Source: Haloferax litoreum (GTDB lineage: Archaea; Halobacteriota; Halobacteria; Halobacteriales; Haloferacaceae). Taken from it: DNA of 64,000 nucleotides. The position numbers and the translations under genes were made by a program. Shown here piece by piece: positions 3,405 to 6,649 of this stretch. The notes under the pieces were generated by a model. The model saw only the letters and a list, made by a program, of their open reading frames with translations. It was not told the DNA's origin and did not search any database. Location: contig NZ_WKJO01000001.1 in NCBI RefSeq assembly GCF_009674605.1, positions 1,550,001-1,614,000 of the forward strand, written 5' to 3'. The first letter of the stretch is position 1. Every line of letters begins with the position of its first letter.

Positions 3405-4334
3405 ATGTTCGGGTGGGTCCGACGCGGCTTTCGACGCGCCTACGAGCGGGTGCTCTCTCGGGAAATCGACGACGGACCGACGCACGTCGCTATCATCCAA
3501 GACGGAAACCGCCGTTACGCGAGAAAGCAGGGTGACGACGCACCCGACGGTCACCGCGCGGGTGCACAGACCACAGAGAACGTCCTCGACTGGTGTGAGG
3601 AACTCGGCATCGAGGAGTTGACGCTGTACGCGTTCTCGACCGAGAACTTCGAGCGCCCTCCACACGAGCGCGAACCCCTCTTCGACCTCTTCGAGGACAA
3701 GTTGTACGAGTTCGCCGACGCCGAACGCGTCCACGACCGAGAAGTCGCCGTCCGCGCAATCGGGGAGGTGGACATGCTCCCCGAACGTGTCCGCGACGCC
3801 ATCGACTACGCCGAGTCACAGACCGGTGACTACGACAGTTTCACGCTCAACATCGCCCTCGCGTACGGCGGCCGAGCAGAACTGCTCAGTGCCGCCCGTG
3901 ACGTGTGCCGCGACGTCGAATCCGGCGTCCTCTCCCCCGACGACGTAGACGTCGAAGCGGTCGACCGCCACCTCTCGCGGCAACCCGTCCGCGACGTTGA
4001 CCTCATCATCCGCACCGGCGGCGACGAACGAACGTCGAACTTCCTGCCGTGGCACGCCAACGGGAACGAAGCGGCCGTCTACTTCTGTGCACCCTACTGG
4101 CCGGAGTTCTCGAAGATAGACCTGCTCCGCGGCATTCGGACCTACGAGTCGCGCGAGAAGTCGTGGCAACGGACGCGAACCGAACGCGCCGTCGCACTCG
4201 TCCGGGCCGTCGCGGAAGTCGAGTTCGAAGACGCCCGTGCTGTCGCGGGTCGCCTCCGCGAGCAACTGCCGTCGTCGGGTGCCGACGAGGTGTCTGCCGA
4301 GTTGGCGAAGCGGACCGACGAGACGGCGGACTGA
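3405..4334 (+). CDS. uppS: cis-prenyltransferase catalytic subunit (undecaprenyl/polyprenyl diphosphate synthase family)
   Basis: 309 residues. Elongates an allylic diphosphate with isopentenyl diphosphate to build the polyprenyl carrier used in N-glycosylation. Conserved region I is HVAIIQDGNRRYARKQG with catalytic Asp33 and the DGNRRYA form typical of archaea and eukaryotes; LTLYAFSTENF and LIIRTGGDERTSNFLPW are also present. The usual WQ..Y.E segment is altered to WHANGNEA, and there is no RxG motif at the C-terminus, which instead ends in an acidic tail. The ATG at 3405 was chosen because it opens MFGWVRRGFRRAYER, as in haloarchaeal homologues as I remember them; the frame is open further upstream. 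A second family member without the Asp lies at 5945-6649. Confidence 0.93.
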   Translation: MFGWVRRGFRRAYERVLSREIDDGPTHVAIIQDGNRRYARKQGDDAPDGHRAGAQTTENVLDWCEELGIEELTLYAFSTENFERPPHEREPLFDLFEDKLYEFADAERVHDREVAVRAIGEVDMLPERVRDAIDYAESQTGDYDSFTLNIALAYGGRAELLSAARDVCRDVESGVLSPDDVDVEAVDRHLSRQPVRDVDLIIRTGGDERTSNFLPWHANGNEAAVYFCAPYWPEFSKIDLLRGIRTYESREKSWQRTRTERAVALVRAVAEVEFEDARAVAGRLREQLPSSGADEVSAELAKRTDETAD

Positions 4335-4361: not shown

Positions 4362-5726
4362 TTATTCGTCGCCCTGTGCCGCGCCGGCGTCGACGACGCG
4401 GCCGTAGAACAGAATCGCGTCGGTCGGTTTGTCGCGGATACAGAACAGGAACGGCCGGTCGAACCGGAGTTCGCCCCACGACGGGGGCAGTGACACTTCC
4501 ATGACGACTGCCGTCGCCGCCGCCGCCTCGGTTCCGTCTTCGTCCACGGAGACGAACGACTTGTGGAACACCTCGTCGACGAAGAGGCCACCGCCACCGT
4601 CTTCGACCATGCCACTGAAATCCGCGCCGGGGCCGAATGCGACGGGCATGCCGAGGTCCGAGAGCGCCGTCGACAACTGGACTTCCGTCTCGAACTCGAA
4701 CTTGGGCAACGCGAGTGTTCCCCTGGCGTCGCTCATCACGTCGAAGAGGCCAAACAACCGGTCGGCGGTGAGGTTCTGCTCGAACGACTCGAACTCGCCT
4801 TCGTCGGGGAGAATCAGCACCATCGACACCTCTTCTCCGATGTACGGCAACTCGACGGCCTGCGCGCCGGGTACCGACGCATAATTCAGCCGAGAGAACT
4901 CGTGGTGCATGAGCGGAACCGTCGATTCGGTGCCGTCCAGTGCGGTGAAGGTTCCCTCCTCGGTGTTTTCGGGGTCGAACTTGTGCAACCAACTCGCCAT
5001 GAAGTAGATGGCGTTAGTGAGCACGAGGATCGTCTGCGGGGTGATGGCGTCCGCCGGGAGCAGGTCTTCGATTCGGTCTTCGGTCTGGTCGGCGACCCAC
5101 TCGTTGATTCGCTCACGTTCGCCGTTCGGGTCGCCGCCGAAGTCCGCCCGGCGAAGGCCTGCGCCGTAATTCTCCTCTAAGAGTGCGAGGTAATCCTCGG
5201 AGAACGGGTAGTCCTCTTGCCCCCACAGTGCGTTCGCCACGGCCAACTGGAAGGCGTCGACTTCCGTGTCGTCGAAGCGGTCCGTGGTCGTCGCTCGACT
5301 GTCGAGTTCGGCTTGGAGGTCGGAAAAGGCAGGATGCACCTCCTCGCCGAGCGTGTAGTGGAGTGTCTCTTCCATCTGTTCGCGAGTGTCGCCGCGAGCG
5401 CCGGCGTAGGTCATCGCCAGCGCGACGGAGATGCTGTACGGCGAGAGGAACTGGTTGCTACCCGTTTTGGCCGCCAGATGGTTGTGCAGTTCGAGGGCGA
5501 ACGCGGCGTTCCCGGACGCGAGCGCGGCGAGTCGTTCGTCGTTGACGTTCGGTGACCCAGTCGGTGGTTCCTCTGTCGGCGTGTCTGTCGACGTCTCGGT
5601 CGGGGTATCTGTGGTGGGCGGTGCGGTCGTGTCCGTTTCGGGCGGGGACCCACCGTCGCCCGTACACCCTGCCACTGTCGCGGCGGCGAGGGCACCCGAG
5701 AGCGCGAGGAGTTCGCGACGCTTCAT
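4362..5726 (-). CDS. serpin-family protease inhibitor, Tat lipoprotein
   Basis: 454 residues. The N-terminus MKRRELLALSGALAAATVAGC combines a twin-arginine signal with a lipobox ending at Cys21; a Thr/Pro/Glu-rich linker follows to about residue 60, then a full serpin domain. Hallmarks are INEWVADQTEDRIEDLLP, LTNAIYFMASWLHKF and the C-terminal FDRPFLFCIRD. The reactive-centre hinge at about 396-405 reads EDGTEAAAAT, the small-residue pattern of inhibitory serpins; the scissile bond should lie in EVSLPP, with Val or Ser at P1. It is probably anchored outside the cell and aimed at a subtilisin- or elastase-like protease. The longer frame upstream of this ATG is rejected because the signal peptide would be internal. 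Confidence 0.93.
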   Translation of the reverse strand: MKRRELLALSGALAAATVAGCTGDGGSPPETDTTAPPTTDTPTETSTDTPTEEPPTGSPNVNDERLAALASGNAAFALELHNHLAAKTGSNQFLSPYSISVALAMTYAGARGDTREQMEETLHYTLGEEVHPAFSDLQAELDSRATTTDRFDDTEVDAFQLAVANALWGQEDYPFSEDYLALLEENYGAGLRRADFGGDPNGERERINEWVADQTEDRIEDLLPADAITPQTILVLTNAIYFMASWLHKFDPENTEEGTFTALDGTESTVPLMHHEFSRLNYASVPGAQAVELPYIGEEVSMVLILPDEGEFESFEQNLTADRLFGLFDVMSDARGTLALPKFEFETEVQLSTALSDLGMPVAFGPGADFSGMVEDGGGGLFVDEVFHKSFVSVDEDGTEAAAATAVVMEVSLPPSWGELRFDRPFLFCIRDKPTDAILFYGRVVDAGAAQGDE

Positions 5727-5768
5727 GTCGGAACGTTCACACAGTCGACAATATGTTTTCTGTAAGCC

Positions 5769-5782
5769 CAAACGGTCGTTTG
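5769..5782. promoter_or_regulatory. 14-bp palindrome upstream of the serpin gene
   Basis: CAAACG-GT-CGTTTG, two perfect 6-bp arms around GT, centred about 50 bp upstream of the serpin ATG. An AT-rich stretch (5750-5758) that could hold the TATA box lies between it and the start. Position and symmetry fit a regulator binding site; which protein binds is unknown. Confidence 0.4.
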
Positions 5783-5804: not shown

Positions 5805-5966
5805 CCCGTGTCAGCACAGCTATCACGTGGTTTGGACTATCGTCCAAATTTCTGTTCCACCCTTCGGGCGCAACAGCGTTCGGACGGTTCGCTCGCGCTT
5901 ACCGTCCAAATCTCCGTATCGGCATAGCCGCCACGTGGTTCGCCCTACCGGCCGAACCTCCGCTGT
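5805..5966. repeat. diverged tandem repeat with hairpins between serpin and UppS-like genes
   Basis: A block centred on CACGTGGTT occurs at 5824 and again at 5932 (period 108 bp). Similarity extends on both sides: CGT.TC.GCA.AGC before it, and a CTAxCG-G/TCC core followed by CTGT after it. The first copy holds a perfect hairpin TTTGGAC-TATC-GTCCAAA (5831-5848); between the copies lies GGACGGT (5882-5888) with ACCGTCC (5901-5907). The second copy runs into the stop codon region of the cis-prenyltransferase-like gene. It may be a bidirectional terminator or the remains of a mobile repeat. Confidence 0.4.
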
Positions 5967-6649
5967 CTGTCCTGATAGTCCCGCAACGCCCGCAGGAAGT
6001 CGCGCTTCCGGAAGTCACGCCAGTTCACGTCGGTGAAGTACAGTTCCGCGTAGACCGACTGCCAAATCATGAAGTCGGAGAGGCGTTCGGCACCCGTCTT
6101 GACGACGAAGTCGGGTTCGTCGGGGAACACCAGTCGCTCTTCGATGTCGGTGCCGTCGATGTCGTCGGGGTCCAACTCGCCGGCGTCGACTTCTTCGGCG
6201 AGCGAACGGACGACGGCGGCGAACTCGCGTTTCCCGCCGAGGCCGATGTTGACCTGTACGGGAGCGTCGGCGCGTTCGGTGTCACCGGGTTCGCGGACGG
6301 CGATGGGGTACGGTGTATCGAGTTCGCGGAGTTCACGAGAGAGCGTCGGGACGACTGCCTCGTCGAGGACACTCACCGAGACGGTGACGCGTTCGGTCCC
6401 GTACTCGAACGCCCAGCGGATGGCGTCTTCGAGTTTGGCGTACGCACCCTGTTCTAACAGGTCGCGCTCGGTGATGACGAGGGCGACGTGCTCGGGTGCC
6501 GCCGTGTCGTCGAGGCGGAATCGGAGGGCGAGGTAGTAGTCGTACAGTCCCACGGAGGTCTGTACACGCGCCGACGTTTCTAACGCTTCGGGTTCGGCGT
6601 GATGTGCGGGTGTGCGGGTCGTCAGACGCGGGAGGAGCGTTCGAGTCAC
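5945..6649 (-). CDS. non-catalytic cis-prenyltransferase-like subunit (NgBR/Nus1-like)
   Basis: 234 residues from a GTG start (VTRTLLPRL). The protein aligns with undecaprenyl diphosphate synthases over most of its length, but region I, HVALVITERD (54-63), has Thr60 where the catalytic Asp should be, and the STEN motif has become SVLDE. Region V is kept: VKTGAERLSDFMIWQ, AELYFTD and DFRKRDFLRALRDYQ, and the last residues are RRFGR, so an RxG motif (RFG, 231-233) sits at the extreme C-terminus. Known heteromeric cis-prenyltransferases pair exactly such an Asp-less, RxG-bearing subunit with a catalytic one, here probably the protein at 3405-4334. Divergent from the DUF92 gene, with only 43 bp between the two GTG starts. 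Confidence 0.85.
   Translation of the reverse strand: MTRTLLPRLTTRTPAHHAEPEALETSARVQTSVGLYDYYLALRFRLDDTAAPEHVALVITERDLLEQGAYAKLEDAIRWAFEYGTERVTVSVSVLDEAVVPTLSRELRELDTPYPIAVREPGDTERADAPVQVNIGLGGKREFAAVVRSLAEEVDAGELDPDDIDGTDIEERLVFPDEPDFVVKTGAERLSDFMIWQSVYAELYFTDVNWRDFRKRDFLRALRDYQDRQRRFGR

Follow-up and report, generated by a model that had tools for sequence, protein, structure and literature searches.

A predicted surface-lipoprotein serpin of Haloferax litoreum lies between two uppS genes and shares an upstream palindrome with other lipoprotein genes

Among the serpins of archaea, Pnserpin of Pyrobaculum neutrophilum and Tk-serpin of Thermococcus kodakarensis are reported to be protease inhibitors in passages of Spence et al. 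2021 (PMC8233489). According to sections of the Pnserpin paper (PMC5297747), this protein, which like the Haloferax litoreum serpin described here has a valine at its likely P1 position, inhibits subtilisin, proteinase K, elastase, and chymotrypsin. These two proteins were compared with the haloarchaeal serpins by their published descriptions. The term "signal peptide" is absent from the Pnserpin paper (PMC5297747), whereas the haloarchaeal serpins form one group in which most members begin as Tat lipoproteins. Haloarchaeal serpins as such are not new: a serpin gene of Natrialba magadii, Nmag_2110, is already in print (PMC3403918), and serpins of Haloferax and Natrialba have been named as well (PMC8233489). 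The passage on Nmag_2110 in PMC3403918 mentions neither lipoprotein export nor a promoter element. Likewise, where PMC8233489 treats the Haloferax and Natrialba serpins, the word "lipoprotein" has 0 occurrences and a promoter element goes unmentioned. No account of haloarchaeal serpins as lipoproteins was found among the matches listed from the open-licence PubMed Central full texts.

The window analyzed here is a stretch of 64,000 nucleotides from the genome of Haloferax litoreum (contig NZ_WKJO01000001.1, positions 1,550,001 to 1,614,000), and the features under study are collected in Table 1. Our main reading, to which we give a probability of roughly 0.62, is that the locus encodes an inhibitory-type surface lipoprotein serpin that was inserted in the Haloferax ancestor and shares a regulatory element with exported lipoprotein genes.

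Table 1. Features of the serpin locus, with positions counted from the first nucleotide of the window
Feature	Position	Strand	Remarks
uppS1, cis-prenyltransferase domain, flank of the proposed insertion	3495..4163	+	PF01255
Likely P1-P1' codons, Val411-Ser412	4491..4496	-	alignment with antithrombin P1-P1'
Reactive-loop hinge EDGTEAAAAT, residues 396-405, P17-P8	4512..4541	-	hinge conserved in relatives
Serpin gene	4362..5726	-	454 aa; ATG at 5726; predicted Tat-exported lipoprotein
N-terminal Tat signal with its lipobox (MKRRELLALSGALAAATVAGC), residues 1-21	5664..5726	-	read directly
BRE/TATA-like core promoter GAAAACATATT, ~26 nt before ATG	5750..5760	-	conserved at fixed distance
Palindrome CAAACGACCGTTTG (CAAA-N6-TTTG), directly upstream of the core promoter	5769..5782	-	probable operator
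uppS2, partial-domain cis-prenyltransferase, other flank	5951..6271	-	PF01255

The sole Pfam match of the protein was PF00079 (Serpin; E=1.4e-109, 367 bits), whose alignment is nearly full length (residues 72-446 versus profile positions 2-369 of 370) and thus places the protein in the serpin superfamily; an NCBIfam search of the protein yielded no match. Together with a reading of the sequence, this confirmed what the earlier note had observed, namely a serpin reading frame with a hinge, Tat and lipobox signals, and cis-prenyltransferase flanks. The identity of the serpin and its motifs are beyond chance, and the genome holds a single copy of the gene. When the sequences of solved structures were searched, the best 60 matches were all serpins, with antithrombin at the top (E=4e-69), and the identity to antithrombin and serpin B3 was 33-38% among the matches listed. 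An AlphaFold2 model built from 46 sequences had a mean pLDDT of 85.5; confidence was low for the N-terminal 50 residues (the tether) and for loop 402-412 (pLDDT <50). Comparison of this model with solved serpins gave Z 43-49 among the best 50 rows listed, the maximum of 49.4 being reached with antithrombin 1br8 (rmsd 1.5 over 360 residues), and model and structural match thus both point to the serpin fold with an exposed reactive loop. By fold the protein is an ordinary family member; among the points in which it differs from antithrombin and serpin B3 are the lipobox and the halophile host, and it is a predicted surface-anchored variant that shares a promoter element with other genes.

Serpin matches were detected in 99 of the 391 genomes and 42 of the 86 genera sampled from the class, a few of them being fragments, which agrees with the earlier claim of a sporadic occurrence in archaea. 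In a FastTree phylogeny from which the loop was excluded, a branch with a local support of 100 set 126 haloarchaeal rows apart from 47 rows of bacteria and viral contigs. The closest non-haloarchaeal relatives among the matches listed (80 loci) were serpins of Chloroflexota, at ~50% identity. These Chloroflexota/Dehalococcoidia serpins are tree neighbours of the haloarchaeal ones with weak support (55) and, unlike them, fall on the bacterial and viral-contig side of the branch with support 100. Carriage by viruses was also considered and was rejected, as the five viral-contig serpins were only 31-41% identical in sequence and did not group with the haloarchaeal serpins in the phylogeny.

For the comparisons that follow, a set of 119 haloarchaeal serpins was used, which leaves aside an interrupted serpin (L112 of G065), the three fragments L190-L192, and a further fragment, G366:C167; six starts were set by hand and that of L075 was set later. 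The N-terminus of the Haloferax litoreum serpin, MKRRELLALSGALAAATVAGC, reads as a Tat motif followed by a lipobox ending at Cys21 under the usual definitions of these motifs. By this motif reading, it has the twin arginine, the hydrophobic stretch, and the lipobox cysteine near residue 21 of a Tat lipoprotein. An Arg-Arg or Lys-Arg start was present in all 119 serpins, but starts were partly chosen for that motif, so the lipobox count alone is independent. The lipobox cysteine is kept in 106 of the 119, in keeping with the Tat lipoprotein export signals noted earlier, and the other 13 have an Arg-Arg start without it. The serpins L110, L120, L127, L148, L151, L169, and L171-L173 show a Tat-like start (SRRxxLA..) and no lipobox cysteine, and several of them also lack the palindrome described below. 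On the basis of its signal motifs, the Haloferax litoreum serpin would use Tat export in a folded state, receive its lipid at Cys21, and stay attached to the membrane's outer face through a Thr/Pro/acid-rich tether (approximately residues 22-60).

The hinge of the reactive loop reads E396-D-G-T-E-A-A-A-A-T405 and follows the P17-P8 consensus of inhibitory serpins, E-x-G-T-x-small(4)-T. Its P15-P8 portion is nearly invariant among haloarchaeal serpins, and the hinge was recovered in 115 of 118 relatives with a permissive pattern and in 104 with a strict one, L189, which has no hinge, having been left out of this count only. The sequence thus supports an inhibitory-type hinge, as had been claimed for EDGTEAAAAT. 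The earlier guess that the P1-P1' bond lies within EVSLPP (residues 410-415) also fits, since V411 aligns with the P1 Arg of antithrombin and S412 with its P1', and Val411-Ser412 is the likely and best placed bond from this alignment. Ser occupies column 412 in 97 of the 119 serpins. The likely P1 residue is Glu in 53, Asp in 21, Thr in 18, Val in 16, and others in 11, so that it is acidic in 74 of the 119. From hinge to P1, the loop is one residue shorter than that of antithrombin if P1 is V411 and equal if it is S412, and loop length varies among the haloarchaeal relatives. Altered loop length is able to turn a serpin from an inhibitor into a substrate.

Conservation of the loop was analyzed with 89 non-redundant rows kept out of 118, a thinning applied solely here because several of the serpins are near-copies from related species. 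The entropy of residue 410, beside the likely P1, was above that of 99.7% of core columns (rank 0.997). The likely P1 is Val in Haloferax litoreum versus Glu in its closest relative (G012), and it also differs among tandem copies, being Asp, Thr, and Val in the three copies of G005 and Glu and Thr in the two of G003; the copies with Thr have one extra loop residue. This variable P1 region would look like a loop that changes specificity. By analogy with known serpins, the surface serpin would trap extracellular serine proteases by a suicide mechanism, in which the protease would cleave at approximately Val411-Ser412, the hinge strand would enter sheet A, and a covalent complex would form.

The gene neighbourhood is the same in all 15 Haloferax genomes, and in 13 of them the serpin adjoins the uppS genes, lying between uppS1 and uppS2 where present (in the draft G013 the uppS2 side is hidden by a contig end). 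uppS2 matches the second half of the PF01255 profile only. At the two empty sites, the matched ends of uppS1 and uppS2 are 43 nt apart in G001 and are separated in G010 by a 603-nt gap with a small ORF common to other genomes; no degraded serpin was detected in either site by tblastn (E<=1). In a midpoint-rooted tree of nine neighbouring proteins, G001 is placed inside the carriers as sister to G002 (98% identical), which argues that the serpin was lost in G001. G010 branches deeper, and its site could reflect either a loss of the serpin or an older empty site. Outside Haloferax, none of 104 serpin loci had an uppS gene within up to 6 kb of the serpin. Elsewhere in the family, 11 of 15 genomes have adjacent, convergent uppS genes whose domain matches lie 194-1240 nt apart, which is less than the 1365-nt serpin gene and leaves too little room for a serpin; in the remaining four the pair is separated. 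As a matter of sequence comparison, insertion before Haloferax radiated would be the simplest reading: the serpin gene would have been inserted between the convergent uppS1 and uppS2 in the Haloferax ancestor, lost at least once in the genus, and tandemly copied in some species. An insertion into an older locus had been proposed earlier, with a serpin at the same place in every relative named as the observation against it; the counts for carriers and for adjacent uppS pairs favour the insertion, two of the 15 Haloferax genomes being without the serpin and 0 of the 104 outside loci lying at this site.

Other features of these loci were recorded as well. Tandem serpins with different reactive loops lie between the uppS genes, two copies in G003 (L174 5779-8571) and three in G005 (L175 6499-12234), and a 179-aa ORF between two serpin copies of G005 has what we take to be a NUDIX-like motif. 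A small, partly hydrophobic ORF of ~120 aa between uppS2 and the serpin is conserved in one Haloferax clade (e.g., L184 of G009) and is kept in the serpin-less G010 (L177), and G004 and G011 have an additional 1.3 kb between uppS2 and the serpin. No recurrent protease or regulator partner was recognised by eye in the ~13 kb serpin loci outside Haloferax. Conserved neighbours were set aside as clues to a target or regulator, the recurring families being common to subsets of loci only, as expected of related genomes.

The 130 nt upstream of the 119 serpins, which come from mostly unrelated genomic places, share a common layout of (T)CAAA-N6-TTT(G/C)A, followed by a BRE/TATA-like element and then the ATG. 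In Haloferax litoreum the palindrome is CAAACGACCGTTTG, and we take GAAAACATATT to be the BRE/TATA-like core promoter, whose position relative to the ATG suggests a leaderless transcript. AAA-N6-TTT was present in 75 of the 119 upstream regions, with 44 lacking the exact form, versus 0, 8, 8, 14, 0, 0, and 0 of 119 for control spacers of N3, N4, N5, N7, N8, N9, and N10, respectively. The AAA of the palindrome is usually 55-57 nt from the ATG, and the Haloferax litoreum serpin likewise has the palindrome at this fixed distance. At -62..-52, the strict form preceded 60 of 103 serpin starts versus none of 1248 other genes of the serpin loci scanned, the starts of the latter being first ATGs and hence partly wrong. 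In each of the tandem serpins (two in G003, three in G005), the second half reads TCTG instead of TTTG. We infer that the palindrome may be the binding site of a regulator. A general lipoprotein promoter element was ruled out because 28 of 29 lipoprotein genes neighbouring serpins are without the palindrome at that position, the sole exception being the start of an interrupted serpin. The halolysin SptA promoter element, given as GAAAT-N7-ATTTC in a passage of PMC6085418, was rejected as the same site on account of its different spacing (N7 versus N6). Neither the conserved upstream palindrome nor the other genes carrying it appeared in the earlier note.

Searching the Haloferax litoreum genome with the spaced pattern gave 8 matches versus 6 for the reversed pattern, and three sites had the exact serpin distance, namely those of the serpin, a DUF4349 lipoprotein (Pfam E=1.6e-65), and a 224-aa Tat lipoprotein. 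Across 14 Haloferax genomes there were 32 palindrome sites versus 31 for the reversed control, compared with 37 versus 4 in 12 carriers of other genera and 30 versus 3 in 12 non-carriers. Since the Haloferax count does not exceed its control, what speaks for the element in this genus is the kind of gene downstream and the constant spacing, rather than how many matches there are. Specifically, 30 of the Haloferax sites were read, of which 23 had a CDS, all 23 encoding a lipobox (8 were serpins), and 21 had exactly one spacing. Reading 30 sites in each of the other two groups revealed 18 with a CDS and 14 with a lipobox in the carriers, and 11 and 5 in the non-carriers, respectively; the link between palindrome and lipoproteins is weaker in non-carrier genomes. 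When the non-serpin CDS behind the palindrome were pooled, 32 of 41 encoded a lipobox versus 29 of 1277 in the background (binomial p 7e-45, with orthologues counted repeatedly; 17 of 26 without Haloferax). The families recurring across genera, as judged by eye, were DUF4349, the 224-aa type, and one that we provisionally call SIMPL-like. From shared sequence, the genes behind (T)CAAA-N6-TTT(G/C)A probably constitute a haloarchaeal regulon of exported lipoproteins, and the palindrome upstream of the BRE/TATA box would place the serpin in this gene set. No account of a lipoprotein regulon with the palindrome was found among the matches listed from open-licence PubMed Central full texts.

The gene of the 224-aa Tat lipoprotein is at G000:C3:91200 (L211), and similar genes follow the palindrome in the majority of the 14 Haloferax genomes scanned and in G092. 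A known inhibitor fold was considered for this co-carrier and set aside after a Pfam search, which matched no family at E<=0.1. Genes behind the palindrome that do not encode lipoproteins (L246, L259, L393, L403, and L408, by eye) comprise two small membrane proteins, a secreted 501-aa protein, an ABC-type ATPase, and a Tat protein without lipobox; one of the non-carrier genes resembles an ABC ATPase.

As for the targets, the earlier note had named halolysins, the secreted subtilisin-like (S8) proteases. S8 proteases were detected in 48 of 49 serpin carriers versus 12 of 20 non-carriers (Fisher p 1.1e-4, kinship ignored), and within family f1 in 24 of 25 versus 12 of 20 (p 0.006). This comparison covers 69 hand-picked genomes out of 391 (49 of the 99 with a serpin match and 20 of the 292 without), with the non-carriers all from one family and G065, which has a stop in the serpin frame, counted as a carrier. 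It is possible, albeit doubtful, that the serpin acts specifically on halolysins secreted by the same cell, holding them in check and so sparing the envelope self-digestion. The association above is consistent with this, as are the serpin of G201 (L167 2204-7359), which is convergent with a Tat-type subtilisin (that genome's sole S8 match) at a distance of one gene, and the inhibition of subtilisin and proteinase K by Pnserpin, likewise with a likely P1 Val, in sections of PMC5297747. However, the association ignores phylogeny, and the control genome, Haloferax volcanii, and the closest relative G012 (a 720-contig draft) both carry the serpin with no S8 match found. Haloferax litoreum itself has five S8 matches in four frames; the palindrome is absent before both S8 genes with a readable upstream region (2 of the 4). 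Glu or Asp stands at the likely P1 in the majority of relatives, and an acidic P1 is poor for subtilisins. The halolysin target thus stands in part, backed by the co-occurrence but not by the S8-free Haloferax volcanii or the acidic P1 residues, while the hinge, export signals, sporadic occurrence, insertion, and P1 region of the earlier interpretation all held. Defense against foreign proteases, e.g., competitors' halolysins that activate toxin precursors extracellularly, would reconcile the S8 association with both of these observations. Such a role, unlikely as we consider it, is favoured by the predicted surface location, by the serpin of Haloferax volcanii, and by the likely P1 that differs between sister genomes and tandem copies. 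Passages of PMC12893001 describe that the halolysin HlyR4 activates antagonistic precursors in Haloferax mediterranei, and this antagonism would give a reason for blocking a halolysin at the surface. On the other hand, the word "serpin" is absent from the main text of that 2026 paper (PMC12893001), and an association with the cell's own S8 proteases fits self-protection equally well.

Two further readings would depart from a surface inhibitor altogether. A non-inhibitory serpin with a binding, storage, or chaperone-like role would be suggested by the loop one residue short of antithrombin length and by the acidic likely P1 of many relatives, but it appears improbable given the nearly invariant P15-P8 hinge, a type from which storage serpins such as ovalbumin differ. 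Very improbable, in our view, is a housekeeping intracellular inhibitor, as Spence et al. proposed for prokaryotic hub serpins in a passage that names Haloferax and Natrialba among the free-living prokaryotes with chordate-like serpins (PMC8233489). The lipobox finding matters because an intracellular location is what the literature expects of such serpins; the lipobox after a twin-arginine-type start in most haloarchaeal serpins and the lipobox proteins encoded by most other genes behind the palindrome both argue against that location.

An inhibitory-type serpin at the cell surface therefore remains our preferred reading. More tentatively, there may be a dedicated envelope regulon, with CAAA-N6-TTTG as its operator, for surface lipoproteins including the DUF4349 and SIMPL-like families, in which the serpin would be an anti-protease shield against halolysins in Haloferax antagonism; we hold this extension to be rather less than an even bet. 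If true, such a lipoprotein regulon would give archaea a counterpart to the envelope responses of bacteria. To explain why few prokaryotes keep serpins and most have lost them is named as a major goal in a passage of Spence et al. 2021 (PMC8233489), and a predicted surface-anchored serpin with a candidate operator and known secreted proteases, in the tractable Haloferax, would make this question of serpin retention testable.
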